A DNA stretch of 64,000 nucleotides, from contig NC_011831.1 in the NCBI RefSeq assembly GCF_000021945.1, positions 2,493,353 through 2,557,352 on the forward strand, read 5' to 3'. The translations under genes and the position numbers were made by a program. The notes beneath the pieces are model-generated. The model did no database searches, was not told the origin of the DNA, and was given only the letters and a program-made list of their open reading frames with translations. Below are positions 21,140-53,236 of the stretch, in pieces. This stretch comes from Chloroflexus aggregans DSM 9485. GTDB lineage: Bacteria; Chloroflexota; Chloroflexia; Chloroflexales; Chloroflexaceae. How positions within the stretch are numbered: the stretch's first letter is position 1; the number at the start of each line of letters is the position of its first letter.

Positions 21140-24100
21140 TCAGATCGTACTTCGCCCCTGTCGGCGATATTCTTCCGGTGATTGACCGGTCTCCTTACGA
21201 AACACGCGACTGAAATAACTGCTGCTCGAAAAGCCAACTTCTAGCGCAATATTGGTAATGCTCTTATCGCTCTCGAGCAGCAGTCGGCGTGCCTGCAACA
21301 CCCGATAGCGGTTGAGATAATCAACCGGCGTGGTGCCGAGTTCTTGCCGAAAACAGTGGGTAAGATAGTCTTCACTCATGCCGACGTAACGCGCAATATC
21401 TTGCCGTGTGAGGGGGTGGTCGTAATGGCTGTGAATATACGCCATGGCCTTACGTACCAGTGTCTGCGCCTGATCGCTAAGCCGTCGGCGACGTTCGAGC
21501 GCAGCTTGCAGGCGGGCGAGAGTCTCGTGCGCGCTGAACACACCTTTGCTCAGTACCGCAGTTACCCCTTGATTGAGACGAGCCATATCCTCTTCGCTGA
21601 GGACACGTCCGGTAATCACGATTACCGGAATCTCCCGCATCTGCTTATGGTTCCGCATTGCCGCCAGCACGTCAAACCCGTCCATCTCCGGCATCATCAG
21701 ATCAAGCAACACCAAATCGACGCGCTGCTGTTCCATCAATTCCAGCGCTTCGCGCCCCGAACGTGCCCGCAAGACCAGTTTTGCGATACCGTGGGCCTGT
21801 ATCAGGCGCGCATGCAGATCGAGCGTATCGGGATCGTCATCAACCACGAGGATGGTCTGGGGCGTACCGATGGTACCGGTAACTCGCCAGTACTGATCGA
21901 GCGCACGCGACAAATCGGCCAACTCAATCGGCTTGGTCAGGTAGTTAAACTCCATCACCGCACCGTGCTGCTCGTTCATGGCGTAACACAAGAGTGGCAA
22001 ATCGCGTGTCGTGGGGTTGGCTTTCAACACTTGGATCGTCTGCCACCATGCCCGCTCACCTTGGGTGGCATGCAAAACGACCGCACTGTAGCTACGGTGA
22101 AGCAGTTCATTCAACCATGCAGCACTCTCGTCAATGGAAAAGACGGTCACGATAAAGCCTCGCTGTTCGAGGTAACGCTGCAACGGTTCATCGTGGTCGG
22201 CAGAAAGGAGCAACACACGCGGCTGGACAGGCAACGCCGGTGGATTGTGTCGCCGACGTGGTGTGGGGGCAGTGATAGTCGGCAAGCGGAAGAAAAACTC
22301 TGCCCCTTCACCCTCAATACCACGCGAACGCACTCCAATCTCCCCACCGTGCATCGCGACCAACCGTTTACAGATTGCCAACCCCAGGCCGATCCCACCA
22401 TAACCCTGACTGACACTCCGTTCTGAACGCTGAAACTCCTCAAAGATATGCGCCTGTTCGGTAGGCGGCAAGCCAATGCCGGTATCACGCACAGTAACGG
22501 TAACTGCATCGGTTTCAGGGGTAACAATCAGGCCAACACGACCGCGAGCAGTGAACTTTATCGCATTGACAACGAGATTAAGCCCGATCTGTTGGAGGCG
22601 GGTCCGATCACCCCAAACCCACGGCCCTTCGGCAGGAATCGAGTCGTACCACGTCAACTGTTTATCGGCAGCCATTTGCCGACCGGCATCAGCCACTACC
22701 CGCATCACTTCACCGAGATCAACTACCTCACAGTTCAGCCGCAATTGGCCGGCATCGCTGCTTGCCAAATCGAGCACATCGCTAATCAACCGACCGAGAT
22801 GTCGAGCACTAGCATAGATGCGCCTGAGATCATCACGGATCGATGACGGTAATGGGTCTCCGCTCTGAGCAATCTCGCGCAGAAGGAGACCACTCATTCC
22901 GACGATCAGATTCAGCGGTGTCTGCAATTCGTGGCTTACCATTGACAGAAAGCGACTTTTGAGTTGATTAGCCTCTTCGGCCAGCCGCTGCCCCTCACTC
23001 GCCGCTCGGTACAGCCGAGCAGTGTTGAGAGCGGCATTGATCTGTTGGGTAATGGTGCCGTAGAGTTCAAGGCGTGATGCATCAAACGTCACAAAACCCG
23101 CCTCACTACCCGTCCCACCAAGTGGGATCAAGGCAAGCTGGAACGATTGGCGAGTCGGTAACCACTGCCGAGGCGGAAAGGTCCGGCTGCGAATGCGCAC
23201 AACGGGCTGCTGTGGCGCCGTCACGGCGCGCAGCCGACACCACGCGACCGGATCACCGTTTTCGGCCTCAAAGAAGCCAATCCAGAGCAAGGGAATATTG
23301 AGTTCGGGGAGATGGTGAGCCAAAATCTCGTAAATATCACTTTCAGCCAGCGTATGTAACAAGCGTGCGGTCAATCGCCCTACCCGATTGTTGGTCTGTT
23401 GTTGCCGATTGAAATACTGCCAATACTGCCAACGCATCGCCGCACTTGTCGTCACACGAGCTTCGTCGAGTAACTCCAAGGCAAGCGGTTGCAACGTCGG
23501 ATCGAACATCCGCGGCACAAGATCGCGCAAGAAGGAAATAGCAATTTGCCAATCGTGGGTGTCATCGCCGGCAGCAGCGACTTGCTTGAGCACCTGTGCC
23601 AGCTCGGTACGAAAGGCAACCGGACGAGCAGATTGCACACTCTGCCTGAATGCCGTGATAAGCTGTTGGCAAAGTCGAGACACTTCGCTGGCTGTTAACC
23701 CATGCATTTTAGGCGCCAGCATCGTGCTCATCGCTTGGGCGGCTTGTACGGGCAAGTTGGCCACAGTCGGTTCAGTTGGGTGGTGGGCAATCATCTCCAG
23801 TGTGTCGGCCAATACAGCACTCTGGCTGCACCCACATGACTCACGGACGATCAAGCGCGTAGGTACCTGCACCAATTCGGGCAACGGTTCACGCTCACGT
23901 ATATGGCGCACCATCAGCTCAAGCGCCTGATAGCCTAATTTGAAGAGAGGGATCCGTACCGTTGTTAGGGCCGGTTCTTGCAACAATCCCTCGATCCGAT
24001 CATCAAAGCCGATGATCGCAATATCGTGCGGCACTCGCTTACCGGCTTCACGCAGAGCTGTGATGGCTCCAATTGCCGACTCGTCATTACTCACCAACAC

Positions 24101-24745
24101 CGCGGTGAACGGTACGCCGGTCGCCAATAACCGGCGCATCGCTTCATAACCACCGGTAAAGACATGCCGACCAAACACGATCAGCCGCGGATCGATTGGC
24201 AAGCCAAACTCGATCATCGCCGCCTGAAAAGCACGTAATCGATCACCAGAATCACCTTCGAGATCGGTCTGACTACCGGCAATAAAGGCAATCTGGCGAT
24301 GACCATGTTCTACGATATGGCGCAGTGCTGCGTAGACCCCACCGACGTTGTCGGCGACAATGGTTGGTCCTCGTTCCCCCGACCCCACAAAGATCACCGG
24401 ATGACCGGATGCACGGATAGCCTGTACCGCCTGCGACCGTTCGGGGCGTTGCAGGGGGTTGATGATAATCAGTCCGTGGGTGTTCCATGGCCCCACCGGT
24501 ACGAAATCGGTATCTTCGATCACATCGAACCAAGCCGGACGTAGTGGCTCGTTGATCTGACCGGACGGACCCATACCGCAGGCTAACAAGAGGTTACAGC
24601 CGAGATCATACGCAGCCTGACGAATACCCTGATAAATCGGGCTAAGGTAGCTCATCGTCAGCATAGTGCCATAAAACTGCCAGCCAGCGATGGCTCCCAC
24701 CGTTGGGCGTCGTCGGTGTTGCTTCGTTGCAGCAATGGTGTGCAT
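21140..24745 (-). CDS. LacI-type sensor/histidine kinase/receiver/AraC hybrid
   Basis: 1201 residues. A sugar-binding LacI/GalR-type periplasmic-fold domain without its DNA-binding head is at about 14-305 (VGAIAGWQFYGTMLTMSYL, IGFDDRIEGLLQEPALTTV). A linker and GAF-like region follow (about 320-585). The histidine kinase has a HisKA box near H604 (LSMVSHELQTPLN) and an ATPase domain (GIGLGLAICKRL). A degraded receiver-like segment precedes a full receiver (ILVVDDDPD, phospho-Asp near 1015 in LVLLDLMMPEMDGF). An AraC helix-turn-helix domain lies at about 1100-1198 (GMSEDYLTHCFRQELG). No transmembrane segment is seen, so it likely senses a cytoplasmic ligand and regulates transcription directly. 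Confidence 0.9.
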   Translation of the reverse strand: MHTIAATKQHRRRPTVGAIAGWQFYGTMLTMSYLSPIYQGIRQAAYDLGCNLLLACGMGPSGQINEPLRPAWFDVIEDTDFVPVGPWNTHGLIIINPLQRPERSQAVQAIRASGHPVIFVGSGERGPTIVADNVGGVYAALRHIVEHGHRQIAFIAGSQTDLEGDSGDRLRAFQAAMIEFGLPIDPRLIVFGRHVFTGGYEAMRRLLATGVPFTAVLVSNDESAIGAITALREAGKRVPHDIAIIGFDDRIEGLLQEPALTTVRIPLFKLGYQALELMVRHIREREPLPELVQVPTRLIVRESCGCSQSAVLADTLEMIAHHPTEPTVANLPVQAAQAMSTMLAPKMHGLTASEVSRLCQQLITAFRQSVQSARPVAFRTELAQVLKQVAAAGDDTHDWQIAISFLRDLVPRMFDPTLQPLALELLDEARVTTSAAMRWQYWQYFNRQQQTNNRVGRLTARLLHTLAESDIYEILAHHLPELNIPLLWIGFFEAENGDPVAWCRLRAVTAPQQPVVRIRSRTFPPRQWLPTRQSFQLALIPLGGTGSEAGFVTFDASRLELYGTITQQINAALNTARLYRAASEGQRLAEEANQLKSRFLSMVSHELQTPLNLIVGMSGLLLREIAQSGDPLPSSIRDDLRRIYASARHLGRLISDVLDLASSDAGQLRLNCEVVDLGEVMRVVADAGRQMAADKQLTWYDSIPAEGPWVWGDRTRLQQIGLNLVVNAIKFTARGRVGLIVTPETDAVTVTVRDTGIGLPPTEQAHIFEEFQRSERSVSQGYGGIGLGLAICKRLVAMHGGEIGVRSRGIEGEGAEFFFRLPTITAPTPRRRHNPPALPVQPRVLLLSADHDEPLQRYLEQRGFIVTVFSIDESAAWLNELLHRSYSAVVLHATQGERAWWQTIQVLKANPTTRDLPLLCYAMNEQHGAVMEFNYLTKPIELADLSRALDQYWRVTGTIGTPQTILVVDDDPDTLDLHARLIQAHGIAKLVLRARSGREALELMEQQRVDLVLLDLMMPEMDGFDVLAAMRNHKQMREIPVIVITGRVLSEEDMARLNQGVTAVLSKGVFSAHETLARLQAALERRRRLSDQAQTLVRKAMAYIHSHYDHPLTRQDIARYVGMSEDYLTHCFRQELGTTPVDYLNRYRVLQARRLLLESDKSITNIALEVGFSSSSYFSRVFRKETGQSPEEYRRQGRSTI

Positions 24746-31522: not shown

Positions 31523-33058
31523 CTAACCTACCCTAACACGACCTGGCCGACGACGCACAAACGGAAGCCGTTCGAGCACCTTGACCAGCGCCTCTTTGAT
31601 CAGCGTCATCTCCTCGTTCGGTAGCGCACGGAAGGCCAGTACCAACCCAATATAAACAACTGCACCGAGCGGCACACCGAGCAAGAAGAACGCAGTCGCA
31701 CGCAGCCACCAAATCGCCGCAACCATCCCAATCCCGGCTACACCGGTCAATACTGCTACCCGCCAATTCTGCGCACCGAGCGTCCCTTTCGGCAAGGCCA
31801 TGATGGCAGCAACCAGAATACCCAGCTCGGTAATAGTGTAAGCCAATGCCCCTCCCAACGCACCGTTATCAAAGGCTTGATCTGTCCACGGTACCAACAC
31901 AAAATCGAGTGGAAGGGTAGCTACCGTCGCTGCAATCATGATTATGTTCAGCACAGCCGTGCGCTCGGCAGCGATCAGCAATTGGCTGAGCACTGTATTG
32001 AGGTACGTACAGATCAGCACCAGACCCATCACGGCCAGCACCGCGCCGGTAGGCCGGAACGCTTCGCCGTAGAGGAGCAGCGCAATCGGTTCGGCCAATG
32101 CCAACAATCCCAGACCGATCGGCATACTCAGCGCCAGCATAATGTTGAAGATTGGGCGAACCGCTTGACGCAAATGATCTTGACCGGCGGCAAAACGTCG
32201 GGTCAACGTAGGGAAGATTACCGTACCGATGGCAACCGGAAAAAACATCAGCGTACCGAAGAGATTAACCGCCGTACCATACCATCCTACCGCCTCTGTT
32301 GAGGCAAAAAGTGCGATAAATAGCCGGTCCACCTGTTGGTAAACCATCAAGGTCAAGGCCGTCACCAGATATTGCTTCGAGTCAAGTAACATCTGACGTG
32401 CGGCGACCAGATCAACACTCCAGCGTGGTCGGTGATGGCGAAAGAGAAAGAAGGCATCGCCGAGAAACGCAACAAAGGCTGCTAACACGTTGGCCCAGCC
32501 GATCCAGATCACGTCAAACCCGGAAAAGAGTAGAGCAAGGCTGACGACGGTCAACACCACCTTACTGATCACCGTCACTAAAGAAACATAATGAGTTTGT
32601 TCGAGACCATTAAGTGCTGCAATCAAGCCGCCGCTGAGCACGGAAAAGAGGGTCATCAAACCGATAATCCAGATCAGCGCCGTTTGGGTAGGATCAGCCG
32701 AAATCACGGCCAGATCATACCCAAAAACCACCAAACAACTAATGGCCCACAACCCAACCCGCACCAGCATACTTGTCCCGATCAAAGCACCGGTGTGCTG
32801 CGGGTCACGCGCAACGGCCTTCATCAGGAACGTATCCATCCCGAACGTGATCAGCACGCCGGCAATCATCCAGATCGAGAGCGCAATCGAAAGCTGCCCA
32901 ATCGCAAGCGGTCCCAGGATGCGGGGCTGAAAAATCGTTACCAGGAATGCCATCGCCCATGTCAGTAACTGGGCAGCCATCATTGCACTCGCATTGCGAG
33001 CTAGGCGCATTCCGCTGATCGGTGGTGGAACCGAGTCGGTCGAAGCCTCAGTGCTCAC
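31523..33058 (-). CDS. Polysaccharide flippase (Wzx/MATE-like, MOP superfamily)
   Basis: 511 residues with about 12-14 hydrophobic segments; starts GTG, overlapping the stop of the glycosyltransferase at 33055 by four bases. The N-terminal pattern MRLARNASAMMAAQLLTWAM and repeated family features such as LMVYQQVDRLFIALF are typical of the oligosaccharide repeat-unit exporters. It would flip lipid-linked units built by the sugar transferase and glycosyltransferases of this locus. Last gene of the leftward operon, followed by a strong terminator. Confidence 0.9.
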   Translation of the reverse strand: MSTEASTDSVPPPISGMRLARNASAMMAAQLLTWAMAFLVTIFQPRILGPLAIGQLSIALSIWMIAGVLITFGMDTFLMKAVARDPQHTGALIGTSMLVRVGLWAISCLVVFGYDLAVISADPTQTALIWIIGLMTLFSVLSGGLIAALNGLEQTHYVSLVTVISKVVLTVVSLALLFSGFDVIWIGWANVLAAFVAFLGDAFFLFRHHRPRWSVDLVAARQMLLDSKQYLVTALTLMVYQQVDRLFIALFASTEAVGWYGTAVNLFGTLMFFPVAIGTVIFPTLTRRFAAGQDHLRQAVRPIFNIMLALSMPIGLGLLALAEPIALLLYGEAFRPTGAVLAVMGLVLICTYLNTVLSQLLIAAERTAVLNIIMIAATVATLPLDFVLVPWTDQAFDNGALGGALAYTITELGILVAAIMALPKGTLGAQNWRVAVLTGVAGIGMVAAIWWLRATAFFLLGVPLGAVVYIGLVLAFRALPNEEMTLIKEALVKVLERLPFVRRRPGRVRVG

Positions 33059-34020
33059 GGCAAAACTCCTCTCTGAGACCGATCACCGGATACCTGTTCA
33101 AACGGTGCATAACGGCAAGCAGCCCGATTCACCGGATATTGCCAGCTCTTCCTGAGGCCGACGAAGGGGTAATAGAGTTGGTCAAGACCGAGCAGTACTT
33201 TATCGCGGCGACGCCATTTGATAATGCCCGACACAATCTGACGTAACCCTTGGCTCAAAAGCCACTCACTCAACAACACCAGCCCACCAAGATCCCCACA
33301 GCGCACATATTTGCCGGCAATGGCGCCGGCACCAATCCCGTAGGAACGAAAACTCCGCCGTACCCCCTGCCAACTTTGCCAATGGTGATGGTATGCAACC
33401 GCTTGCGGTGTAAAGACAATCCAGCCACCAGCCTTGAGAGCGCGGTACCCTAGATCGCGCTCTTCCCACGCCCCAAGCGGCGCACCTGCCCCAATCAGCT
33501 CATCAAAACCGCCGAGCCGCTCAAACGCATCGCGCCGCACCCCCATGTTGTGGCCATGACCGAAACCCAAATTAAACCGATTGTCCCGAAACACGCGGCG
33601 CACCCCGTTGCACGTACCAAGGACTAACTCATCGGTATCGGTCAGGTGTGGCCCCGGCAGCACTGCACCAAATGCTAGCCAAACCCGTTCATCACGCAAC
33701 TCGGCTACCAGACCACCGATCCAATCCGGATCGAGCACACAATCGTCGTTGGTGAACAGGATATACGGCGCGCTACCCATTGCCGCTCCGGCATTGCGCG
33801 TCGCCGAAATACCACGCACCGGCCGCCGTAGATAGCGAATGCGCGGGTCGAGATCGGCATAGCGGCGAACACACTCTTCTGTGCGGTTATCTTCGCTCTG
33901 GTCAAGAACCCACAGGGTAAAGAGGGGATACGTACTTTGGCGAATACTGGCGATAGTAGCGTCGATTGCGGCGCCTCGCCCATAGGTCGAAATGACCACA
34001 TCCACTGACGGCGTACTCAT
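33055..34020 (-). CDS. Family 2 glycosyltransferase
   Basis: 321 residues, GT-A fold. VDVVISTYGRG begins the nucleotide-binding half. The metal-binding acidic motif is in LFTNDDCVLDPDW, and a likely catalytic acidic region in GAPLGAWEERDLGYRA. It resembles rhamnosyl- and other sugar transferases of exopolysaccharide loci; the sugar is unknown. Coupled to the flippase by a 4-base overlap. The upstream gap of 111 bases to the receiver gene holds no clear terminator. Confidence 0.9.
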   Translation of the reverse strand: MSTPSVDVVISTYGRGAAIDATIASIRQSTYPLFTLWVLDQSEDNRTEECVRRYADLDPRIRYLRRPVRGISATRNAGAAMGSAPYILFTNDDCVLDPDWIGGLVAELRDERVWLAFGAVLPGPHLTDTDELVLGTCNGVRRVFRDNRFNLGFGHGHNMGVRRDAFERLGGFDELIGAGAPLGAWEERDLGYRALKAGGWIVFTPQAVAYHHHWQSWQGVRRSFRSYGIGAGAIAGKYVRCGDLGGLVLLSEWLLSQGLRQIVSGIIKWRRRDKVLLGLDQLYYPFVGLRKSWQYPVNRAACRYAPFEQVSGDRSQRGVLP

Positions 34021-34131
34021 AGCCTTGCTACCTGCCTACTGCCATGGTCGTTGACGACAGCAGTGTACGCCCAAGAGCTTAAACTTCGCTGAAATTGGGT
34101 ATTACTCATAGTTAACGAGACCGTCACGTTC

Positions 34132-34518
34132 CTAATCGGATCGTTTGAGCGAAAGTTGACACATCAGTCGCTCAATCTCGCCGACCAAGTCGTCAGAATC
34201 GAACGGTTTGGTTAAGAAAGCGTTAACCCCAACACCGGCTGCTTTCACTTCATCCTGTTCTTTCGGGCTTGCGGTAATCATAATAATCGGCAATGTAGCG
34301 TAGCGCTCATCGGCACGGATCGCACGTACCAGTTCGATCCCGTCCATGCGCGGCATCGTCAAATCGGTTACAACGAGATCGACCGCAAACTGCTCAAGCC
34401 GACGCAACGCTTGTTCACCATCAACAGCGGTGACCACCGTATAGCCATGCTGTTCAAGGACAAAACTCATAAGCCGATGGCTTGGAATATAGTCATCTAC
34501 GATCATGATCGTCGTCAT
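34132..34518 (-). CDS. Single-domain response regulator (CheY-like)
   Basis: 128 residues from ATG 34518, with AAGGAGC eight bases upstream. Receiver only: D8/D9 (IMIVDDYIP), phospho-Asp in LVVTDLTMPRMDG, and switch lysine in FLTKPFDSDDL. No output domain, so it signals by protein contact. It is the last of four regulatory genes (STAS, SpoIIE-type phosphatase, RsbW-type kinase, receiver) and lies 13 bases from the kinase gene. It may feed two-component input into partner switching. Confidence 0.92.
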   Translation of the reverse strand: MTTIMIVDDYIPSHRLMSFVLEQHGYTVVTAVDGEQALRRLEQFAVDLVVTDLTMPRMDGIELVRAIRADERYATLPIIMITASPKEQDEVKAAGVGVNAFLTKPFDSDDLVGEIERLMCQLSLKRSD

Positions 34519-34531
34519 GAGAGTTTGCTCC

Positions 34532-34963
34532 TTATGCAAGATGTTTCATCAGATGCCAGTGATTCCCATCAGGACGCGACGTATAACTCACTCGATCCAT
34601 CAAATGACGGATAAGAAACAGCCCATAACCGTGAATTTGTGCCTCGTTCAGATTGGGCTGCGGCACCGATTCCGGCTCAAACGTTTCGCCGGTATCGTGC
34701 AGATCAATCTCTAGTCGCGGCGGTTGGGGATGAAGAGTGAGCGTGATTCGAATCCGACCCTCACCGTCACGCCAATGCCGATAGGCATGACTGACAATAT
34801 TGGTACAGACTTCGTGGGCTGCTAATTGCACATTATAGATCAATGTTTCGTTGTGCGCACCGATCTGCCGGAGCATTTCGGCAATTGTTTCGCTCAGCAA
34901 GCGCAAGTAGGCATAGCGAGCCGGCAAATCGAGCCGGATTACTTCACTGTGTTGCAGGCTCAC
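34532..34963 (-). CDS. RsbW-like anti-sigma/serine kinase (HATPase_c)
   Basis: 143 residues from a GTG with AAGGAG upstream. GHKL ATPase N-box LAAHEVCTNIVSHAYRH, with catalytic Glu and Asn; G1 region DLHDTGETFEP; and GYGLFLIRHLMD. Family members phosphorylate STAS antagonists on Ser and sequester a partner protein. Phosphorylation targets nearby are the STAS protein (36491) and the STAS domains fused to a glycosyltransferase (38586). No sigma factor gene is in the locus. It overlaps the phosphatase gene by four bases. Confidence 0.9.
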   Translation of the reverse strand: MSLQHSEVIRLDLPARYAYLRLLSETIAEMLRQIGAHNETLIYNVQLAAHEVCTNIVSHAYRHWRDGEGRIRITLTLHPQPPRLEIDLHDTGETFEPESVPQPNLNEAQIHGYGLFLIRHLMDRVSYTSRPDGNHWHLMKHLA

Positions 34964-36498
34964 GGCTCCGCTCCTTTGAGAACAATAAGGGTCTGATCGT
35001 CATCTTGCGGATGACCGGCACTAAACCGATCGATAGCGCTGAACAGGCCGTCGGCAATCTCACGCGCCGATCGTTCGGCCAATTCATCAATTGCAATTAA
35101 TAAACGCTCAATCCCGAACATTTCATCGTCTGCATTGCGCGCATCACTAAAGCCGTCGGTCGCAACTACAAGCAGATCACCCGGCCTGAGCGGCAGATAA
35201 CGATTTTGAAAATGATTTACCGGCAAAATGCCTATCGCAGTGTTGTCGGCCAACAATAGTTCGGCGTTACCACTGCGCGGACGGTAAATAACCGGAGCGT
35301 GGCCAGCGTTAGCGTATGCAATCTCTCGGCGTTCGGCTTCGTATTGTCCAACAAAAACGGTAGCAAAAACACCAATCCGGGTAAAATCGTTGTAGAGGTC
35401 CTTGTTCGACTGTCGCATCACCGACGCCGGTGTCGGCGAAGGCATAAACTGCGCTTTACTGTGTAACGCAGTGCGCGTCATTGACATCAACAGCGCCGCC
35501 GAAACCCCTTTTCCACTAACGTCACCAATCGTGAAAATGAACGGGTGATTGGGAGCGGTTATGAAATCGAAGAAATCACCACCGACCTGAAGCGCCGGTC
35601 GTGAATAGGCGTACAGGTCAAGACCGGGTACGTCGGGCAACGTCCGTGGTAAGAGATCGGTCTGCACCCGACGGGCCAGATCCATCTCGCTCCGCAGCCG
35701 CGCTTGCTCGATCATTTCCTGATAGAGCAAGATCCGCTCAATTTGAGCACTGGCTTGCTCGGCAATCGCCCGTCCCAACTTCAATTCCGGTGTTCCAAAG
35801 TCACCACTCCGATCGATCAGGCCGATGCTCGCCATGATCATACCGCGTACCCGGATCGGAAGGAGTAAGAGATTGCGCACACCGGGTGGCCGTCGCAGAT
35901 CACCATCACTTTCATTCAGTACGATGGGGCGATCTTCGGTTTGTAGTTGCCAATATAACCGCCAAATACTCTCCGGACTCAAGCGTTGCTCCGATGACTG
36001 TACGAGCAACGGTTCGCCGCCATTGGTCGGAACATACGTTGCAAACCCGGCCTGTGCTTTTACCATCCGCTTCGCTTCAACAATGACCGTATCGAGCGTC
36101 TCCCGGATTGTCACCAAATCACGCATGGCTTGAGTGAGCCGGTAGAGCGCCAACTGTTGATCTTGACTGGCGACGAGATCGGCTGTCATACATTGCAATT
36201 CGTACTCAAGCTGCAAGATATAGCCGATCAGATTCGCTTCAGCTTGCAACCGGCGACGCGCAGCTTCATCGCGCAAACCGGTCAACCGCAACTCACCGGC
36301 GACCTCGCCGTATTGGTAAATGGGGGCCGTGATGTCGGGCGCCAAGAGCCGCTGCCCTGCCGGCCAATACGCTAATGCCCTGCCATTCGCATAAACGCCA
36401 AACGCCTGCGCACCATGTGCTAACCACGCCTCGGCAAGTGCTTGAATGCGATCGTATTGCAGGCTGAGTAGAGAGAGCAACATGGGCGCCTCATGCAT
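34960..36498 (-). CDS. SpoIIE/RsbU-type PP2C phosphatase with GAF domain
   Basis: 512 residues. A GAF-like sensor region occupies about 130-255 (LDTVIVEAKRMVKAQAGFA, LLLPIRVRGMIMASIGL), joined by a helical linker to a PPM phosphatase domain (about 275-510). Metal-binding motifs are VGGDFFDF, FTIGDVSGKGVSAAL and DLLVVATDGFSDARN. It would dephosphorylate STAS antagonists, opposing the RsbW-like kinase. The first ATG (36498) overlaps the STAS gene by eight bases; an ATG at 36483 with GAGG upstream is an equally good start. Confidence 0.92.
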   Translation of the reverse strand: MHEAPMLLSLLSLQYDRIQALAEAWLAHGAQAFGVYANGRALAYWPAGQRLLAPDITAPIYQYGEVAGELRLTGLRDEAARRRLQAEANLIGYILQLEYELQCMTADLVASQDQQLALYRLTQAMRDLVTIRETLDTVIVEAKRMVKAQAGFATYVPTNGGEPLLVQSSEQRLSPESIWRLYWQLQTEDRPIVLNESDGDLRRPPGVRNLLLLPIRVRGMIMASIGLIDRSGDFGTPELKLGRAIAEQASAQIERILLYQEMIEQARLRSEMDLARRVQTDLLPRTLPDVPGLDLYAYSRPALQVGGDFFDFITAPNHPFIFTIGDVSGKGVSAALLMSMTRTALHSKAQFMPSPTPASVMRQSNKDLYNDFTRIGVFATVFVGQYEAERREIAYANAGHAPVIYRPRSGNAELLLADNTAIGILPVNHFQNRYLPLRPGDLLVVATDGFSDARNADDEMFGIERLLIAIDELAERSAREIADGLFSAIDRFSAGHPQDDDQTLIVLKGAEP

Positions 36499-36829
36499 TC
36501 AAAACGTTGAGCGCGTGTTCTGCATCAACAAAGATGTTAAACGCTTTATCGAGCCGTGTCAGTTCAAAAATCATGAGCACCGGACGACGCAAACCACACA
36601 GAGCAAACTCACCTTGCACCTGCTGACACCGCTTCATCGCCGAGACTAAGGTCGCCAGTGCGGTTGAGTCAACAAAGGTCGTTTCTGAGAGATCAACCAA
36701 TACCCGCGCTCCGGGGGCAGTGGTTGCCTGTTCGAGCCAATGTTGCACCGGCGGCGCAGTGTTGGCGTCAAACCGGCCCTCTATCGCCAGTATCGATACA
36801 TTGCCGACGGTTCGCGGCTTCATTTCCAT
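36491..36829 (-). CDS. STAS-domain anti-anti-sigma factor
   Basis: 112 residues from ATG 36829, ten bases after AAAGGAGG; the TTG at 36838 is too close to that site. Single STAS domain with phospho-acceptor S55 in TFVDSTALATLV, the D-S-x-A pattern of SpoIIAA/RsbV. It is expected to be phosphorylated by the RsbW-like kinase and dephosphorylated by the SpoIIE-type phosphatase directly downstream. Same operon as the polysaccharide enzymes upstream. Confidence 0.93.
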   Translation of the reverse strand: MEMKPRTVGNVSILAIEGRFDANTAPPVQHWLEQATTAPGARVLVDLSETTFVDSTALATLVSAMKRCQQVQGEFALCGLRRPVLMIFELTRLDKAFNIFVDAEHALNVLNA

Positions 36830-36880
36830 GGTTGCCAATCCTCCTTTAGCGCAAACTAAAAAACGCTCACCAACAGTTTA

Positions 36881-38581
36881 TCACCGGCTTTGTGGTGGCG
36901 CGAGATCGGCGGTGACAATCCGACCGCTTGTTCGCTTCGCCTTTACCCGACGGTACCAGGCAATTGGAGTGCGGATCAACAGATTCAAATCACCTTGCCA
37001 GGTATGCGTTGCGCTGTAGTATACATCGGCTATAATCACTGCATCCAGATCATCATCGGCAGCTTGGAGATACCACAAACCGGTCACACCGGGAACAATC
37101 TCGTGCCGCCGCTGCTGCCACTCTTCGCGCAACCGTTCAGCTTCTTGCGGGGTCAGTGGTTTGACCCCAACCAGTTGTACATCACCCCGTACCAAGTTTA
37201 ACAATTCAGGCAAGCGGTGGAACTCATAGGCCTCTAGCCAAGCCCCAAACCAGAGGTACCGTCCGTCGGGGTGACGAGTGCGCCATCGCCAGAGGGTGAA
37301 GGAACGCAGGGTCGTTTGGCCGTTTGGCAACATCACCCGTTCACCAACCCGCGGTACACCTACCAGTGGCCGGCCACCACTGCCAATAGTCGCCAATAAC
37401 CCCGTCAGTAACCATAACGGGCTGAGCACGATCAGGGCAATCAGAGCGCCGATCCGATTGAGCGTGCCGGCCAGCCGTCCCATCCCGGCGGTAGCCGCCG
37501 ATACCCGCCCGATCAAGAATGGATCGACGATGGCCGTCTGCTCACCGGTCTCCGGATCAATAACCATACCGGGATAGACGATCCGCTGATTGATATTGAC
37601 CAACTGACCAACATAGGTATCGGCCCAAATCGTGCTCGCGGTGACCGTAGCTTCATCGTCGATCATGCACCCTGCACCAATGACCGTACCGGGACCGAGT
37701 TCGGCTTCACGCCCGACCCAACAGTTGTCACCAATGTACAGTGGTGGTGCGATGCGGACACCAGGATGGATCGAGTCGTTTCGCCCCACCCAAATCCCAG
37801 GTGCAATCTTACGCCCACCGATCGAAGGGTATCGGACCGTCTCGACCGGTCCATCGGTGATCGTCGGATCAAGGGCACGATAGGCACTGTAGAGAAAAAC
37901 CTGTTGCGCTGCGTGGTAATCGGCTAGGGTATGCAAGGGATTCCAATAGCCCTGCAACAGAAAACTCTGTATCGGAATGTCTTGCTCAAGGAGACGTGGG
38001 AGGAGATCGGTGGCAATCCGATAGCGAGTACGCAGTGGAATCTGGCTCAAGAGGGGCGGTTCAATAATATACGCCTCGGTCAAAGCTACGGCATGTGGCT
38101 CAGACATATCGGGGAGGATGGCCTCAATCAAGCCATTGCCGGTTACAATCGCTCCCGGCGTTTTCCATTGCTTATGCGGAGCATGGGTGATGGCAGTGAT
38201 CATTGCCCCACTCTGTTGATGATAGGCCAGTGCCTCCTCGATGGGCAAATCGATGATTGCGTGACCCGGTAGCACAAGACACGTCTCGTTAATCAACGGC
38301 CCTACCCAACGCAATGCACCCCCATCGGCCCACGCTTCGTTGAGCGTCACGTATTCAATCTCCACCCCCCATCGTTTACCACTGCCAAACGCAGCCGTGA
38401 TCGGCGCGCTCTGTTCGTATAAGGCTATCAGGATGCGCTTGACACCGGCACGCGCCAGTATCTCAACCGTTGTCGCCATCACCGGACGATCAACAATCGG
38501 GAGTAACACATTTGGCAAGACATCGGTCAGTGGGGATAACCGCCGATCCTCTGCTGTCGCTATCAAGAGGGCTATCGTCAT
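36881..38581 (-). CDS. Degenerate nucleotidyltransferase/beta-helix/sugar-transferase fusion
   Basis: 566 residues. The N-terminal third looks like an NDP-sugar pyrophosphorylase, but its signature loop is changed (ATAEDRRLSPLT in place of the Gly-rich loop; PNVLLPI where PKPLLPV is usual), so the catalytic lysine is lost. A left-handed beta-helix follows (about 240-345; WVGRNDSIHPG, NCWVGREAELGPGTVIGAG). A membrane helix and a sugar-transferase-like domain (about 375-550) come last, in which the catalytic Asp-Glu of DELPQL is replaced by His-Arg (HRLPEL, 455-460). It is probably inactive in both domains and may be a scaffold or regulator. Confidence 0.8.
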   Translation of the reverse strand: MTIALLIATAEDRRLSPLTDVLPNVLLPIVDRPVMATTVEILARAGVKRILIALYEQSAPITAAFGSGKRWGVEIEYVTLNEAWADGGALRWVGPLINETCLVLPGHAIIDLPIEEALAYHQQSGAMITAITHAPHKQWKTPGAIVTGNGLIEAILPDMSEPHAVALTEAYIIEPPLLSQIPLRTRYRIATDLLPRLLEQDIPIQSFLLQGYWNPLHTLADYHAAQQVFLYSAYRALDPTITDGPVETVRYPSIGGRKIAPGIWVGRNDSIHPGVRIAPPLYIGDNCWVGREAELGPGTVIGAGCMIDDEATVTASTIWADTYVGQLVNINQRIVYPGMVIDPETGEQTAIVDPFLIGRVSAATAGMGRLAGTLNRIGALIALIVLSPLWLLTGLLATIGSGGRPLVGVPRVGERVMLPNGQTTLRSFTLWRWRTRHPDGRYLWFGAWLEAYEFHRLPELLNLVRGDVQLVGVKPLTPQEAERLREEWQQRRHEIVPGVTGLWYLQAADDDLDAVIIADVYYSATHTWQGDLNLLIRTPIAWYRRVKAKRTSGRIVTADLAPPQSR

Positions 38582-38585
38582 CGCT

Positions 38586-40103
38586 TTAAGCTCCTTCGGC
38601 AGCTACATGCGAATTTCCTACCGGTGCAGTGGTAGCCGCGCGAACATCAGGGAAAATGGCGAGCACCAGATCGAGTTTCACCAATTGCAGCGTGCGAAGA
38701 ACATCTGGAGAACAACCGGCAATCCGTAAGGCACCCCCTTGCTCACGGGCGAGACGGTCGAGCTTCACGAGCGTAGCCATACCGGCGCTGGCCATAAACG
38801 TCGTACCGCTGCAATCGATCACTACCCGCGCAGCTTTGTTCAAAGCTGCACTGACCTGTTCAAGCACGGTCGGTGCGGTTGTGGCGTCGAATAATCGTGG
38901 CGCCGGAATGATCGCCCAACCGTGATCGGAAGCCGGTACGGTGGGCGCCGGCTGTTGTTGTTGGGCAATCCATGCTTCGATTGACGGCAAATCGGGAAAC
39001 TGCTCGAAAAAACGGTTCAGGCGGAGCAAGTCAAGAATGCGCAAAATTGGCTCCTGCACATTGAGTAACAAGAGATCGCCACCCTGGGTGCGAGCGCGTT
39101 TAGCAAGCGCAACCAACGCACCGAGCGCCGAGCTGTCGAGAAACTGAGTGACGCTGAGATCGAGGATCAGGTATGGACTGGTCTCGAGTAATTGATATGC
39201 GGTTTGGTTAAACGGCTCAAGATTACCCGCCTCAAGCCGTACACCCACGGTCAATACCGGCCACGGTACGGTAGGTGTCGGTGGTGCGGGCGGTTGTTCT
39301 GATGCAGATGGTGACGCCACCGGGACTATGCTCAACGCTCGTCCACGCTGCATCGCCCACCACTGACGAGCAAAAAAGTATCCGAAATAGACAAAATCAT
39401 GAACGTAACGTTTCCACAGTCGGCGCGGCTCTTGGATCAGCCGGTAGACCCATTCGAGACCACTACGCTGCATCCAAAGCGGCACCCGTTTGGTCACGCC
39501 AACGATCATGTCAAACGTCCCGCCAACCCCAATAGCAATCGGCACCCGCAGCTCGTGTGCATACATGCGGATCCATTTCTCTTGCTTGGGATTACCAAAC
39601 GCGACCAGCAGGATATCGGGCTGAGCCGCTTTGACTGCTTCCACCACCGAACGATCCATCTCCAATACCGAACTCGGCGGTGGCGAGAGCACACCGGCCA
39701 CGCGCAAACCGGGATAACGTTCTTGTAAAATTGCCGCGGCCTTGGCTGCCACTCCCTCGCGAGCACCCAGGAAGAAGATGGAATACCCACGCTGCGCCGC
39801 CCGCTCGGCCAATGCCGGCACCATATCGGCACCGGTTACCCGCCCCGGCAACGGCCCACCGAGCAACCGCGAGGCCCATACCAACGGCATCCCATCGGCT
39901 GTGGCCATATCGGCCTCTTGCAGGATGCGCCGTAATTCGGGATCGTGTAGGGCATTTACGACAAAATCGGCATTAACCGTCGCAATCTGGTGAAGACGAC
40001 CGGTTGCGCGACCTACAGCGATAAATTCATCACAGCGGTCGAGCGCCTCAGCCATAGTCAGGTTATCAATCGGCACACCGAGAATGACGAGAAGTTTGCG
40101 CAT
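38586..40103 (-). CDS. WecG/TagA-type glycosyltransferase fused to two STAS domains
   Basis: 505 residues from ATG 40103 (MRKLLVILGVPIDNLTM). Residues 1-245 are a GT26 (WecG/TagA/CpsF) transferase with NADF (D46), the proposed base in TADGMP (D70), FLGAREG and FGNPKQEKWI. After a Pro-rich linker come STAS domain 1 (about 282-385), with D323-S324 in FLDSSALGALV, and STAS domain 2 (about 395-490), with FMASAGMATLV, where Ala replaces the Asp before the phospho-serine. GT26 enzymes add the second sugar to a lipid-linked first sugar made by the phosphoglycosyl transferase encoded just upstream. The fusion directly couples chain initiation to partner switching. Confidence 0.92.
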   Translation of the reverse strand: MRKLLVILGVPIDNLTMAEALDRCDEFIAVGRATGRLHQIATVNADFVVNALHDPELRRILQEADMATADGMPLVWASRLLGGPLPGRVTGADMVPALAERAAQRGYSIFFLGAREGVAAKAAAILQERYPGLRVAGVLSPPPSSVLEMDRSVVEAVKAAQPDILLVAFGNPKQEKWIRMYAHELRVPIAIGVGGTFDMIVGVTKRVPLWMQRSGLEWVYRLIQEPRRLWKRYVHDFVYFGYFFARQWWAMQRGRALSIVPVASPSASEQPPAPPTPTVPWPVLTVGVRLEAGNLEPFNQTAYQLLETSPYLILDLSVTQFLDSSALGALVALAKRARTQGGDLLLLNVQEPILRILDLLRLNRFFEQFPDLPSIEAWIAQQQQPAPTVPASDHGWAIIPAPRLFDATTAPTVLEQVSAALNKAARVVIDCSGTTFMASAGMATLVKLDRLAREQGGALRIAGCSPDVLRTLQLVKLDLVLAIFPDVRAATTAPVGNSHVAAEGA

Positions 40104-40117
40104 GGTGGTATATCTTG

Positions 40118-40861
40118 TCAGTATGCACCGCGACCCAGTAAAACCGCCGGAATGGTGCGGAGCAAGATCTCGATATCCTTCCAAATACTCTGCTCAGCAA
40201 TGTATTGCAGATCAAGTTCAACCCACCGCTTGAAGTCGAGATCACTGCGCCCCGATACCTGCTGCAAGCCGGTGATGCCGGGAATAGCGTGGAGACGACC
40301 AATCTGCTCGTAGGTATATTTTGCGACCTCGCTCGGCAGTGCCGGTCGCGGTCCTACGAGGCTCATTTCACCTTTCAAGACGTTAAAGAGTTGCGGCAGC
40401 TCATCGATACTCAACTTGCGGATCACACGCCCAACCCGCGTGACCCGTGGATCGCGCTTCATTTTGAACACCGGTCCGTCGGCTTCGTTCTTCGCTTGCA
40501 ATTCTTTCAGGCGTTGTTCGGCATCGACGTACATCGAACGAAACTTATAACAATAGAAATGTTCGCCATCTTTCCCAACCCGCACTTGCTTGAAGATGAC
40601 CGGACCCGGCGATTCGAGTTTGATGGCAATCGCGGTTATCACCATAATCGGCGCCGAGAGGATGATTGCCACCGTAGCTACCGAGACATCTAACACACGC
40701 TTAAGCCGAGCCAATAGCTTGGTACGAATAACCCAGAGCGATAACGTGAAGCGCAAGCGCTGATTGGCGCGTGTGCGTTGAAATCGCCGTTCGGCAAAAA
40801 TGGTCAGCATACGCTGACTTTTCGGATCAAGCGTTTCTTGCGAAGGTTTGATCGCTCGCAT
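40118..40861 (-). CDS. Monotopic phosphoglycosyl transferase (sugar transferase)
   Basis: 247 residues from ATG 40861, with GAGGTG seven bases upstream; the GTG at 40876 is less likely. WbaP/PglC-like domain. A membrane re-entrant helix (about 50-80) precedes [12 protein letters not shown] and [10 protein letters not shown]. Catalytic D153-E154 lie in [11 protein letters not shown], then [12 protein letters not shown]. It transfers a sugar-1-phosphate to undecaprenyl phosphate and starts the repeat unit. First gene of the leftward run that includes the STAS-glycosyltransferase (14-base gap). Confidence 0.93.
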
Positions 40862-41208
40862 AGAGAAGCACCTCACATCTAATGCTTGACCGTACTATAC
40901 ACCGGCGAGCGAACAAAAACCTTACACCAGTTGACTGAACGGTTACGAATATTTCACTGACTACCGCATTGTTTGACACAGAGTACGCTGGCAATATCTT
41001 TAACAATATTAGATGTTTATATTATACATAATTCATTAGTATATTTGTGGAAGTATCCCCATTAGATAAACTCATCTGGCCGAGTAGCACTGTGATGATG
41101 TACTGAATGCAATGAATCATCAGCCCCTTACACATCAATTTGTCAACAAGTCATGGGACAATCAGCTCAGTACTATGTTCCAACGCATCCCTATCCTTGA
41201 GGTTTTCA
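40862..41208. other. AT-rich divergent regulatory region
   Basis: About 350 bases between the leftward polysaccharide operon and the rightward glycosidase gene, no gene. The segment 40975-41055 is far more AT-rich than its surroundings, with TATATTATACATAAT (41016-41030 region) containing several -10-like boxes on both strands. It is the likely site of divergent promoters and possibly of regulator binding. Confidence 0.5.
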
Positions 41209-47086: not shown

Positions 47087-48631
47087 GTGAATAACCCTAT
47101 GCTTGATCTCCTGGTTCTGCGTTATCCTGATGTGATGACGGTCGCTCGGCGCAACGAACGGCGCTGGTGGCTCCTCTTTCTGGCGGTGTGTCTTCTCGCC
47201 GGCGTGGTGATGTTCTTGCTGCGCCGACGGATGAGTCCCGAGTCGGTGTTGTCGTTTTTGATCTTTGGCGGCGTCCTGTTCGCTACTGCCGTTCAACCAC
47301 GGTTTGGCGTGTACGCTATTCTCGGTCTTACCCTTTTTGGCGACCGTTCATTGCATCCGTGGTACCCGTTTACCAAAAACTTATCGAGCCGCGAATCGAT
47401 CATGTTCGTGTCCGACTCGTTTTCGCTCAGCCCGCAAGAGATCACGATTGTTTGGACGTTAGTGGTCTGGCTGGTGCGAGCAGCGACCGAGCGGCGCTTA
47501 CGGATTCATTTTGGTCCACTCTTCTGGCCGGCGGCGATCTTTCTGGTCTTCAACGCGATTGGGCTTGTGTATGGGCTGGCTAACGGCGGCAATCGGGTTA
47601 TTGCCCTTTGGGAAGTGCGCTCCATCTTCTATCTACCGTTAATGTTGTTGTTAGCCGGCAACTTGATCGAGAACCGCGCCCAACTGAATACACTGTTCTG
47701 GATTGCTACGATTGCTCTGTTTGCCAAAGGTGTAGCCGGGGTTTGGTATGTTCACGATGTGCTGAAGTGGGATTTGGAAGGTGTTGAACGGATCGCCGAG
47801 CACGCAATGTCGATCCATTTCAACTTCTTCTTTGTCTTGCTGATCGCTGCTTGGCTCTATCGCGATAGCGCGGCACGTCGTTTCTCGATGATGCTGATGG
47901 CGCCATTCGTCCTTTTCAGCTTGGTCGCCAACTTTCGTCGGGCCGGTTTTCTCACCCTCGGCATCGCGGTTGGCTTGATCGTTCTCTTGCTCTACATCGA
48001 AAATCGTCGCCTCTTCTATATTATTGCCCCGACCGGTACCATCGCAATGGCTGCGTATCTCGTGGTCTTCTGGAATAATCAGGGACCGCTTGGTATTTTA
48101 GCCCGCGCCATCCGGTCGGTGATCGGCCAGCCGAGCGCCCGTGATGCCGCGTCCAACATCTATCGCGATTTGGAGAATATCAATATTATGTTCACCATCC
48201 GCCAGGCCCCGCTCACCGGTATCGGGTTTGGTAACAAATTTTATATCGTGGTGCCGATGCCTGATATTAGTGTATTTGAATGGTGGGAGTACATTACGCA
48301 CAACTCGATCATGTGGGTTTGGATGAAGATTGGCGTGATCGGGTTTTACGCGCTGATCCTGTTACTCGCGATCACGATGCTCTACGGCGCACGGATGGTA
48401 CGACTGATGCCACGTGGTCAGATGCGGGTGTTTGCCCTTACTGCCACGCTGTACATCTTTACCCACTTCGTCTACGCCTATGTGGATATGTCGTGGGAAA
48501 ACGGTAGTATGGTGTTTGTCGGTACAATGATGGGCGTGATTAATGCCTTACCACAAATTGCCGCCGGCAAACCGGCCCCGATCTGGCCATGGCGTGTGTT
48601 TACCCCGCCGCCCAACGAACCACGCACATAG
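47087..48631 (+). CDS. O-antigen ligase/polymerase-family membrane protein
   Basis: About 514 residues with some 11-12 hydrophobic segments. A large extracytoplasmic loop after about residue 330 carries the O-antigen ligase (Wzy_C/WaaL-like) character (TGIGFGNKFY, WEYITHNSIMWVWMKIG). FRRAGFLTLGIAVGLIVLL is typical. It starts at GTG 47087 or ATG 47099; neither has a strong ribosome site. It would polymerise or ligate lipid-linked repeat units flipped by the Wzx-like protein. Confidence 0.87.
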   Translation: MNNPMLDLLVLRYPDVMTVARRNERRWWLLFLAVCLLAGVVMFLLRRRMSPESVLSFLIFGGVLFATAVQPRFGVYAILGLTLFGDRSLHPWYPFTKNLSSRESIMFVSDSFSLSPQEITIVWTLVVWLVRAATERRLRIHFGPLFWPAAIFLVFNAIGLVYGLANGGNRVIALWEVRSIFYLPLMLLLAGNLIENRAQLNTLFWIATIALFAKGVAGVWYVHDVLKWDLEGVERIAEHAMSIHFNFFFVLLIAAWLYRDSAARRFSMMLMAPFVLFSLVANFRRAGFLTLGIAVGLIVLLLYIENRRLFYIIAPTGTIAMAAYLVVFWNNQGPLGILARAIRSVIGQPSARDAASNIYRDLENINIMFTIRQAPLTGIGFGNKFYIVVPMPDISVFEWWEYITHNSIMWVWMKIGVIGFYALILLLAITMLYGARMVRLMPRGQMRVFALTATLYIFTHFVYAYVDMSWENGSMVFVGTMMGVINALPQIAAGKPAPIWPWRVFTPPPNEPRT

Positions 48632-48696
48632 CACGACTGCGGTATACTTCCTGTGAGCCGCCAGACAGCACCGAGGTCCCATGTGGTGAAAGTTGT

Positions 48697-49506
48697 ATGC
48701 TACGACGTTCAACGTTGTGTTTCCTCTGTGTTGTGATCATCCTCACCGGCTGTAGTCGTCGCTCAAGCGCCGATCCACCGCCGATCGTGACTGCGACTCC
48801 AACGGTTGCTCCGGTGTTTCAGGAACGACCGACGGCAAGTCCGTTTGTACCACCACCTACCCGTACCCCATTGCCAACGCGCCCACCGGTCACAGCAACG
48901 ACCGTCGGCGACGACGACCGTAGTCAGTTGCAGGTTGATCCGGTCTATCGTGATGCACTGAGCACCGGCTGGAGCATCGCCAATAGTGCGTTACTGACCA
49001 GCGTGACCCTTACCGAGACGCAGGTCGTCGCATTGGGCCGCTATGCCATCGCCGTCACACCGAGCGAGAGTACCGGTATCTTGTTCTTCACCATTACACC
49101 TGAGAGTGGGATTGAACTCCGCCGCGATCAGGTAGCTGCGTTGCGACTCCGGCTAAGTGGCGGCAATCTACCAATCGCCAACGATGCGATGACGATTGCA
49201 GTGGTGGGAAGTAATCGCTTCCCATACTGGACGCCAAATGACGATTCGGTCACTCTGAGCGGTCGTGTTACCAACAGCACCGAACCACTCTTCCCGGAAA
49301 CCCGTCTCTATTTTCTGGGTGTTAATCGCGCCATTGCACCGGGAGAATGGGCCGAGATTTACGTCTGGCTTGACGATTTGATCTATGAACCGGAGTATAC
49401 CTACGTTACCGGTTTTTATCTTAAGACGAGTAACGATTTGGTACCGCAGTATTACGTTGATCAGATAGAATGGTTGGTGCGAGCAGAGTCATCAGCTAAC
49501 CCATAG
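48697..49506 (+). CDS. Lipoprotein of polysaccharide locus, unknown function
   Basis: 269 residues from ATG 48697. Signal and lipobox ILTGC make C19 the anchor, then a Pro/Thr-rich linker (25-70). The globular part (about 80-265) has beta-sandwich character (VDPVYRDALSTGWSIANSA, GEWAEIYVWLDDLIY) like carbohydrate-binding modules. It overlaps no other gene and follows the ligase/polymerase by 65 bases; a role in holding polymer at the surface is only inferred. Confidence 0.75.
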   Translation: MLRRSTLCFLCVVIILTGCSRRSSADPPPIVTATPTVAPVFQERPTASPFVPPPTRTPLPTRPPVTATTVGDDDRSQLQVDPVYRDALSTGWSIANSALLTSVTLTETQVVALGRYAIAVTPSESTGILFFTITPESGIELRRDQVAALRLRLSGGNLPIANDAMTIAVVGSNRFPYWTPNDDSVTLSGRVTNSTEPLFPETRLYFLGVNRAIAPGEWAEIYVWLDDLIYEPEYTYVTGFYLKTSNDLVPQYYVDQIEWLVRAESSANP

Positions 49507-49513
49507 AGCATCA

Positions 49514-52949: not shown

Positions 52950-53236
52950 AACGATTGCCTCAGCTACGCGATCACTCACCGCTCCCCAAACTTGTCGGTT
53001 CGTTACGTTGAGTATAACGAAACGGTATAACCTTTCTGTTAACGCAAAAACAGCTTGGCTTGCAATGTTGTTATGTACCAATTGACAGTACCGTGAGTGG
53101 GGAAATAGAGTATGATGATACGGTTATGAAGAGTATTGTCAGATCGATCACATCGGACAACCGACACCAAACCGTCATCACCCAAAGCTGCTAAGATATT
53201 CCGCGCGAAGCTCGGCTTGACAGAGAAGGAACCGGC

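Follow-up and report, generated by a model that had tools for sequence, protein, structure and literature searches.

This report concerns a run of nine genes in Chloroflexus aggregans DSM 9485 in which the parts of a partner switch (an RsbW-type kinase, a SpoIIE-type phosphatase and STAS proteins) stand among enzymes of polysaccharide synthesis. The window is the whole stretch of 64,000 bases that was analyzed (contig NC_011831.1, positions 2,493,353 to 2,557,352, from a genome of 4,684,931 bases in a single contig), and the positions given below are counted from its first base. A first-pass annotation, made from the letters of this DNA, had described nine leftward genes with such domains; Pfam profiles and the coordinates of the open reading frames (ORFs) confirm all nine at 31523-40876, on one strand, the reverse strand.

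Seven of these genes form the core discussed here. The first (40118-40876) encodes a phosphoglycosyl transferase (PGT) of 252 residues with a Bac_transf domain (PF02397, 229.9 bits) and an intact catalytic pair, Asp158-Glu159. The second (38586-40103) encodes a glycosyltransferase of the WecG/TagA/CpsF family (GT26; PF03808) fused to two STAS domains (PF01740): STAS1 (38958-39257) carries Asp323-Ser324 at the canonical phosphorylation position, and in STAS2 (38613-38927) the Asp is replaced by Ala438 and Ser439 is kept. The ORF of this gene is open to 40184, and the ATG at 40103 was assumed as its start. The third gene (36881-38581) encodes a pseudo-enzyme, here called the dead enzyme or dead PGT, in which the Pfam domains NTP_transferase, left-handed beta-helix (LbH) and Bac_transf correspond to a predicted-dead nucleotidyltransferase (NTase), the helix and a predicted-dead PGT. 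It is followed by a stand-alone STAS protein with Asp57-Ser58 (36491-36838; PF01740, 66.9 bits), a GAF domain joined to a SpoIIE-type PP2C phosphatase (34960-36498; PF01590 and PF07228, the latter with 151.7 bits), an RsbW-type serine kinase (34532-34963; HATPase_c_2, PF13581, 94.5 bits) and a single-domain response regulator receiver (34132-34539; PF00072, 102 bits). In ORF coordinates, the junctions from the PGT to the receiver are gaps of 14, 4 and 42 bases followed by overlaps of 8, 4 and 8 bases, the gap of 14 holding if the second gene begins at the assumed ATG. After a further 111 bases come a family 2 glycosyltransferase (GT2; 33055-34020, PF00535) and a Wzx-type flippase (31523-33058; PF01943 and PF13440), which overlap by 4 bases and are attached to the core in the genus of the window. 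A scan for transcription signals gave 6 promoter-like sites, where shuffled sequence gave 7.2, and 9 terminator-like sites, where it gave 9.8; counts so near the shuffled values provide no evidence on transcripts. Scans for Rfam families and tRNA genes found none in the window.

The catalytic and signalling residues separate the intact from the degenerate members of the set. The Asp-Glu dyad of the first-gene PGT is kept in 22 of 22 orthologues. In the third gene all 23 orthologues lack the GxGTR and PK motifs of the NTase, and none has an unbroken PGT dyad, as the Glu is lost in every one and the Asp in 21 (the letters at the dyad are HR in 13, QR in 3, DR in 2 and others in 5), and on these grounds the label of pseudo-enzyme proposed in the first-pass annotation holds as a prediction. 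The best Foldseek matches to a structure model of the dead enzyme are NTase-LbH proteins, among them the pyrophosphorylases for GDP-mannose and ADP-glucose. The GT26 domain has an invariant Asp70 and PKQEKWI motif in alignments A1 and A4, and the AlphaFold model of the GT26-STAS-STAS protein is confident (pLDDT 88, pTM 0.84), with Foldseek matches to TarA/TagA (E 5.7e-16) and, more weakly, to SpoIIAA and RsbV chains. Of 28 aligned rows of STAS1, 27 retain Asp-Ser and one is a gap at that site; in STAS2 the Asp is missing in all 26 rows that have residues there (A-S in 19, S-S in 6, S-Q in 1), 2 of the 28 rows being gaps. The same pattern of the two domains is found in seven GT26-STAS loci from outside the order of the window's organism (hereafter the order). 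The stand-alone STAS protein has Asp-Ser in 21 of 21 rows, at a site that aligns with that of SpoIIAA (1th8_B). Among 20 rows of the phosphatase, 2 are truncated and the remaining 18 keep the motifs GGDF, GD, TDG and DDQT, and the N-box Glu and Asn of the kinase are present in 20 of 20 rows, one of which (L093) is broken further on; the kinase matches RsbW 6m36 (E 5.5e-9).

To delimit the conserved unit, 82 genomes of the order were searched with the GT26-STAS protein and the flanking DNA was read; co-located genes were found by profiles built from orthologues, and the window itself was left out of the counts. Of 35 GT26-STAS loci, 20 contain the complete set of seven core genes. They comprise 14 of 28 loci of the order (two of the 28 belong to one genome) and 6 of 7 loci from metagenome-assembled genomes beyond it, which bear the label Anaerolineae, Chloroflexi or Chloroflexota. 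Several of the 15 loci with an incomplete set end at contig ends. Synteny in relatives, on which the first-pass annotation had staked its model, is therefore present, since the seven-gene order recurs both inside and outside the order. The unit itself is shorter than first described: the stretch from PGT to receiver stands, and the GT2 and the flippase are not part of the core. All 5 complete loci of the same genus have this pair after the receiver and no locus of another genus does, so that a nine-gene core was rejected; in other genera, a distant GT2 (30% identity) lies directly after the receiver in locus L093, and flippase-like ORFs lie about 1.3 kb beyond the kinase in L082. As an addition of the window's genus, the GT2 and the flippase are unlikely core targets of the switch.

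The GT26-STAS fusion and the dead enzyme also tend to be kept or missing together. Each is found in 28 of the 82 genomes of the order; 27 genomes have both, 53 have neither and one each has one alone (Fisher 2e-19, a value that ignores relatedness). The sets were compiled by hand, and in the genome with the dead enzyme alone (G005) the contig ends at that place. At E 1e-60, a phosphatase relative is present in all 29 genomes that have the fusion or the dead enzyme, one of which (G002) is counted through a more distant phosphatase of 42% identity, and in 14 of the 53 others. The genes are not always contiguous: the GT26-STAS gene stands apart from the rest of the module in G013-G015, and in G039-G040, a split that favours the model proposed below, the kinase is together with the PGT, GT26-STAS and dead enzyme, with the STAS, phosphatase and receiver genes elsewhere. 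In a phylum sample of 400 genomes the fusion was found in 16 (E 1e-95), all within the order, which indicates that the module is rare outside it. A related cassette, STAS-PP2C-RsbW-STAS-receiver, lies between a GT2-GT1 fusion (GT1, glycosyltransferase family 1) and a flippase-like gene (L123:4619-11162) and is another polysaccharide-linked switch; a further related cassette (L122) adjoins genes such as that for anhydromuramic-acid kinase, which do not serve polysaccharide synthesis. The plasmid search with the STAS protein returned 38 records, every one below 60% identity. A second locus of the window's own genome (L097), where the neighbours of a GT26 gene include a STAS gene and two kinases of the HATPase type, was not counted, as carboxyltransferase and transposase genes lie between them. 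Next to an IS605-type transposase gene at this locus (L097:6016-7582), two overlapping frames each seem to hold part of the carboxyltransferase domain.

A contig scan for the fusion returned at least 80 loci. Among the loci listed, records with the titles Verrucomicrobia/Opitutaceae and Chthonomonadales/Armatimonadetes also hold GT26-STAS fusions, and Acidobacteria have GT26 proteins with STAS-like tails, several of which are without the Asp-Ser motif; the scores of the tail domains are modest outside Chloroflexota. A SpoIIE phosphatase was found in 5 of 26 Verrucomicrobiota-type GT26-STAS loci, against 0.33 expected from genome density (Poisson P 2.6e-5), the 26 having been picked by record title after the first survey had already been seen; among about ten similar records outside the 26, a phosphatase match was found in L192 alone. 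In L163, genes for a STAS protein, a kinase-PP2C protein and a receiver adjoin GT26-STAS-STAS, and in L166 and L145 a degenerate NTase-LbH-PGT gene immediately precedes the STAS and kinase-PP2C genes. An Armatimonadota homologue of the dead enzyme (L147:11131-12729), whose locus has a STAS gene, keeps the NTase motifs (GVGSR...PKP) and has a broken PGT dyad. It is a possible evolutionary intermediate, and, because this one sequence retains the first activity's motifs and has lost the second's, PGT activity may have been lost earlier than the N-terminal activity. When the dead-enzyme alignment was compared with 291 genomes of the Armatimonadota group, two of the matches listed (G468 and G959) ran through the PGT part, and the remaining ones stopped before it or at its start.

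The association of the dead enzyme with the switch was examined in another phylum by searching 288 Verrucomicrobiota genomes with the dead-enzyme alignment A2. We chose 20 loci among the listed matches that cover the LbH part, some of which may be close relatives, and as controls 20 PGT-only rows from the same list; the control ORFs have 468-837 residues, so that small PGTs are uncontrolled. A STAS gene is present in 19 of the 20 dead-PGT loci and in none of the 20 controls (Fisher 3e-10, ignoring relatedness), counted anywhere in the stretch read, so that L232, at a distance of 5 kb, and L238, with the gene on the opposite strand, are included; within 1.2 kb and on the same strand it is found in 17 of 20. 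A kinase or phosphatase occurs in 13 of 20 loci, one of them through a kinase match at the edge (L240), and in 0 of 20 controls (Fisher 1.3e-5, again ignoring relatedness). A PGT lies within 1.2 kb on the same strand in 19 of the 20, and all 19 have the dyad. The PGT-type Asp-Glu motif is absent from all 20 dead-PGT ORFs, one of which has an unrelated Asp-Glu-x-Pro, and present in all 20 control PGTs. In L224:7514-9478 the dead NTase-LbH-PGT and an RsbW-type kinase (PF13581, residues 536-641) form one ORF of 655 residues, followed by a STAS gene. This test supports a link between the switch and the sugar genes.

The link might nevertheless be structural. The STAS tails of GT26 would then serve dimerization or membrane attachment, the dead PGT would be structural or decaying, and the switch would be co-expressed with these proteins without contact. 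The Acidobacteriota tails without Asp-Ser, the loss of the STAS2 Asp in every row showing the site and the modest tail scores beyond Chloroflexota would all suit such a role. It accords poorly, however, with the retention of Asp-Ser by STAS1 in all 27 rows with residues, and with the recurrence of the dead PGT across phyla beside STAS, kinase and phosphatase genes, which none of the 20 controls has. We consider a purely structural role rather unlikely.

The Verrucomicrobiota loci also bear on the receiver, which might be the direct regulator: when phosphorylated it would bind and activate the PGT, as EpsW is described to do with EpsZ in passages of the paper on that pair, and the STAS protein, kinase and phosphatase would tune expression or act elsewhere. 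Besides this precedent, the module does contain a single-domain receiver, whose phospho-acceptor Asp is kept in 15 of 16 rows. Yet among the regulatory genes near the dead PGT, those for STAS are the most frequent in the 20 Verrucomicrobiota loci, and the sugar-enzyme fusions found involve STAS and kinase. Moreover, several of these loci encode receiver, PP2C phosphatase and kinase in one protein, which points to the receiver as an input into the switch. A STAS-receiver fusion directly after the dead PGT (L223:8668-9531) is compatible with both the receiver as direct regulator and a partner switch acting on the sugar enzymes. Direct control of the PGT by the receiver alone seems to us improbable.

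The families of kinase, STAS protein and phosphatase are familiar from anti-sigma switches, and the module could be an ordinary one that acts on a distant sigma factor, with the sugar genes merely co-transcribed. The absence of a sigma factor from an otherwise full set of parts, which the first-pass annotation had pointed out, is borne out: the window contains none, and no sigma factor of the SigB/F/G type exceeds the TIGR02980 cut-off in the genome, in a search that passes this cut-off in 1 of 14 control genomes. There are 22 Sigma70_r2 matches genome-wide, the nearest about 190 kb from the module, and a group 2 or extracytoplasmic function (ECF) sigma factor is a possible target. A review, in its passages on Chlamydia, describes a switch there that targets the housekeeping sigma factor, and in four genomes of the order the cassette occurs without the sugar genes, as detailed below. 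The STAS-GT26 and kinase-dead-PGT fusions, however, speak against a distant sigma factor, as does the link to the PGT and dead PGT, which recurs, with controls, in another phylum. Regulation through such a factor appears unlikely.

It is, in our judgement, fairly probable that the seven core genes form a sigma-free partner switch whose direct output is the machinery of polysaccharide chain initiation. The RsbW-type kinase would phosphorylate Ser58 of the stand-alone STAS protein and may well do the same to Ser324, in STAS1 of the GT26 fusion. On a signal the GAF-SpoIIE phosphatase would take the phosphate off again, and the receiver would contribute a two-component input. Depending on the state of phosphorylation, the STAS protein or the kinase would dock, or fail to dock, on an initiation complex. 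In this complex the active PGT would transfer the first sugar and GT26-STAS the second, and the dead NTase-LbH-PGT would act as a scaffold or as a subunit for docking. Only in the on state of the switch would the cell spend carbon and undecaprenyl phosphate on this polymer. The phosphorylation, the binding, the complex and the activating or inhibiting effect of docking are what we infer from the genes, and the part of the dead PGT as docking partner is less certain than the initiation machinery as output. Because the switch is built into the enzymes that start the chain and conserved with them, the data suggest that it turns polysaccharide production on and off directly. The first-pass annotation had let the kinase or STAS proteins gate the glycosyltransferases. 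Gene order, fusions and the Verrucomicrobiota loci support its view that the switch belongs with the sugar genes, and the target of the switch is better placed at the initiation step, since in the 20 Verrucomicrobiota loci the usual neighbours of STAS genes are the PGT and dead PGT, and only 5 of these loci contain a GT26 gene.

Several observations weigh against this proposal, and the low count of GT26 genes just given is one of them. The regulatory cassette STAS-phosphatase-kinase-receiver is found without GT26-STAS or dead enzyme in G012, G024, G026 and G027, so that another target is possible and a dedicated switch fits these genomes ill. In G012, of the same genus as the window, a GT1-type gene precedes the cassette and the phosphatase frame is shifted (L115:7769-9302), which may reflect decay or a sequencing error. 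Conversely, G025 has GT26-STAS and STAS and lacks the dead enzyme. No kinase or phosphatase was detected in the stretch read in 7 of the 20 Verrucomicrobiota loci, nor near the sugar sets of L147 (Armatimonadota) and L187 (Acidobacteriota). The dyad Asp is retained in 2 of the 23 Chloroflexota copies of the predicted-dead PGT and, with the Glu lost, in several of the 20 Verrucomicrobiota ones; in 4 of these 20 the PGT-like part is undetected by profile, and the designation there draws on the LbH part and the position. The structure model of the dead enzyme is weak (pLDDT 66.5). Finally, the genome has 34 STAS and 31 HATPase matches, so that cross-talk is possible.

Two other parts of the window were noted. 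A protein resembling Wzy/O-antigen ligase and glycosyltransferases are encoded at 47087-53081, perhaps as more polysaccharide genes, and a protein of 1201 residues at 21140-24745 combines a periplasmic-binding-type domain, a histidine kinase, a receiver and an AraC DNA-binding domain.

The claim in the first-pass annotation that no system of exactly this design had been described has to be set beside the known neighbours: SypE/SypA, SiaC, EpsW, HfiA and All4160 each come close, and each differs from the module. In a literature search, mainly of open-access papers, none of the matches listed dealt, in its title or the opening of its abstract, with a partner switch that acts on PGT or GT26 enzymes. 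The Bacillus switches RsbU/V/W-SigB and SpoIIE/AA/AB-SigF share the families of kinase, STAS protein and phosphatase with the module; they have a sigma factor, whereas the module set is without one. In SiaABCD of Pseudomonas aeruginosa, SiaC binds and activates an enzyme under control by phosphorylation, as proposed for the module, and the enzyme is a diguanylate cyclase rather than a sugar transferase. In Myxococcus xanthus the single-domain receiver EpsW, from the eps locus, controls the initiating PGT EpsZ post-translationally. EpsZ is a large monoPGT, unlike the 252-residue PGT of the module; the main text contains the terms "STAS", "partner-switch" and "anti-sigma" 0 times, and the passages describe no RsbW-type kinase or dead PGT. 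For the receiver and PGT of the module, the relation seen in the sequence is co-location only. HfiA of Caulobacter directly inhibits HfsJ, an enzyme of the WecG/TagA family in which resistant mutations lie near the C-terminus; it is an inhibitor of 68 residues controlled at the level of expression, and the passages on it mention no phosphorylation switch. These three precedents, SiaC-SiaD, HfiA-HfsJ and EpsW-EpsZ, count in favour of a switch that acts on the initiation enzymes. All4160 of Anabaena, needed for the heterocyst envelope polysaccharide, is a glycosyltransferase with a STAS domain, like GT26-STAS; its STAS domain is N-terminal, unlike that of the module, and no partner-switch operon appears in the passages on it.

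A further counterpart is SypE/SypA of Vibrio fischeri, where, as in the module, a STAS protein with a phosphorylatable serine and a serine kinase/phosphatase belong to a polysaccharide locus (syp) and, in the passages seen, no sigma output is shown. SypE is one protein with kinase, receiver and PP2C domains; the module has three separate genes, which are fused in several Verrucomicrobiota loci, and differs further in its GT26-STAS fusion and dead PGT. A switch of the SypE/SypA type would have the STAS protein as its output, with the unphosphorylated form as the active one. According to the 2023 paper, in its passages on SypA, the target of this protein is unknown and it acts below transcription; in the passages seen on SypA there is no evidence for a role as anti-sigma antagonist. 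The module supplies named candidates for a target of the SypA type, namely the PGT, the second-step GT26 and the dead PGT, and it suggests a role for a family of pseudo-enzymes seen in two phyla or more. Few examples are known in which the committing first step of polysaccharide synthesis is controlled post-translationally, a point discussed in the EpsW-EpsZ paper. A tentative generalization, to which we give somewhat less than an even chance, is that Chloroflexota and Verrucomicrobiota share a widespread new class of partner switch, in which the output is a glycan-initiation complex, a dedicated dead PGT docks the STAS protein and the kinase, and the target of a SypA-like STAS protein is the initiating PGT or its partner transferase.

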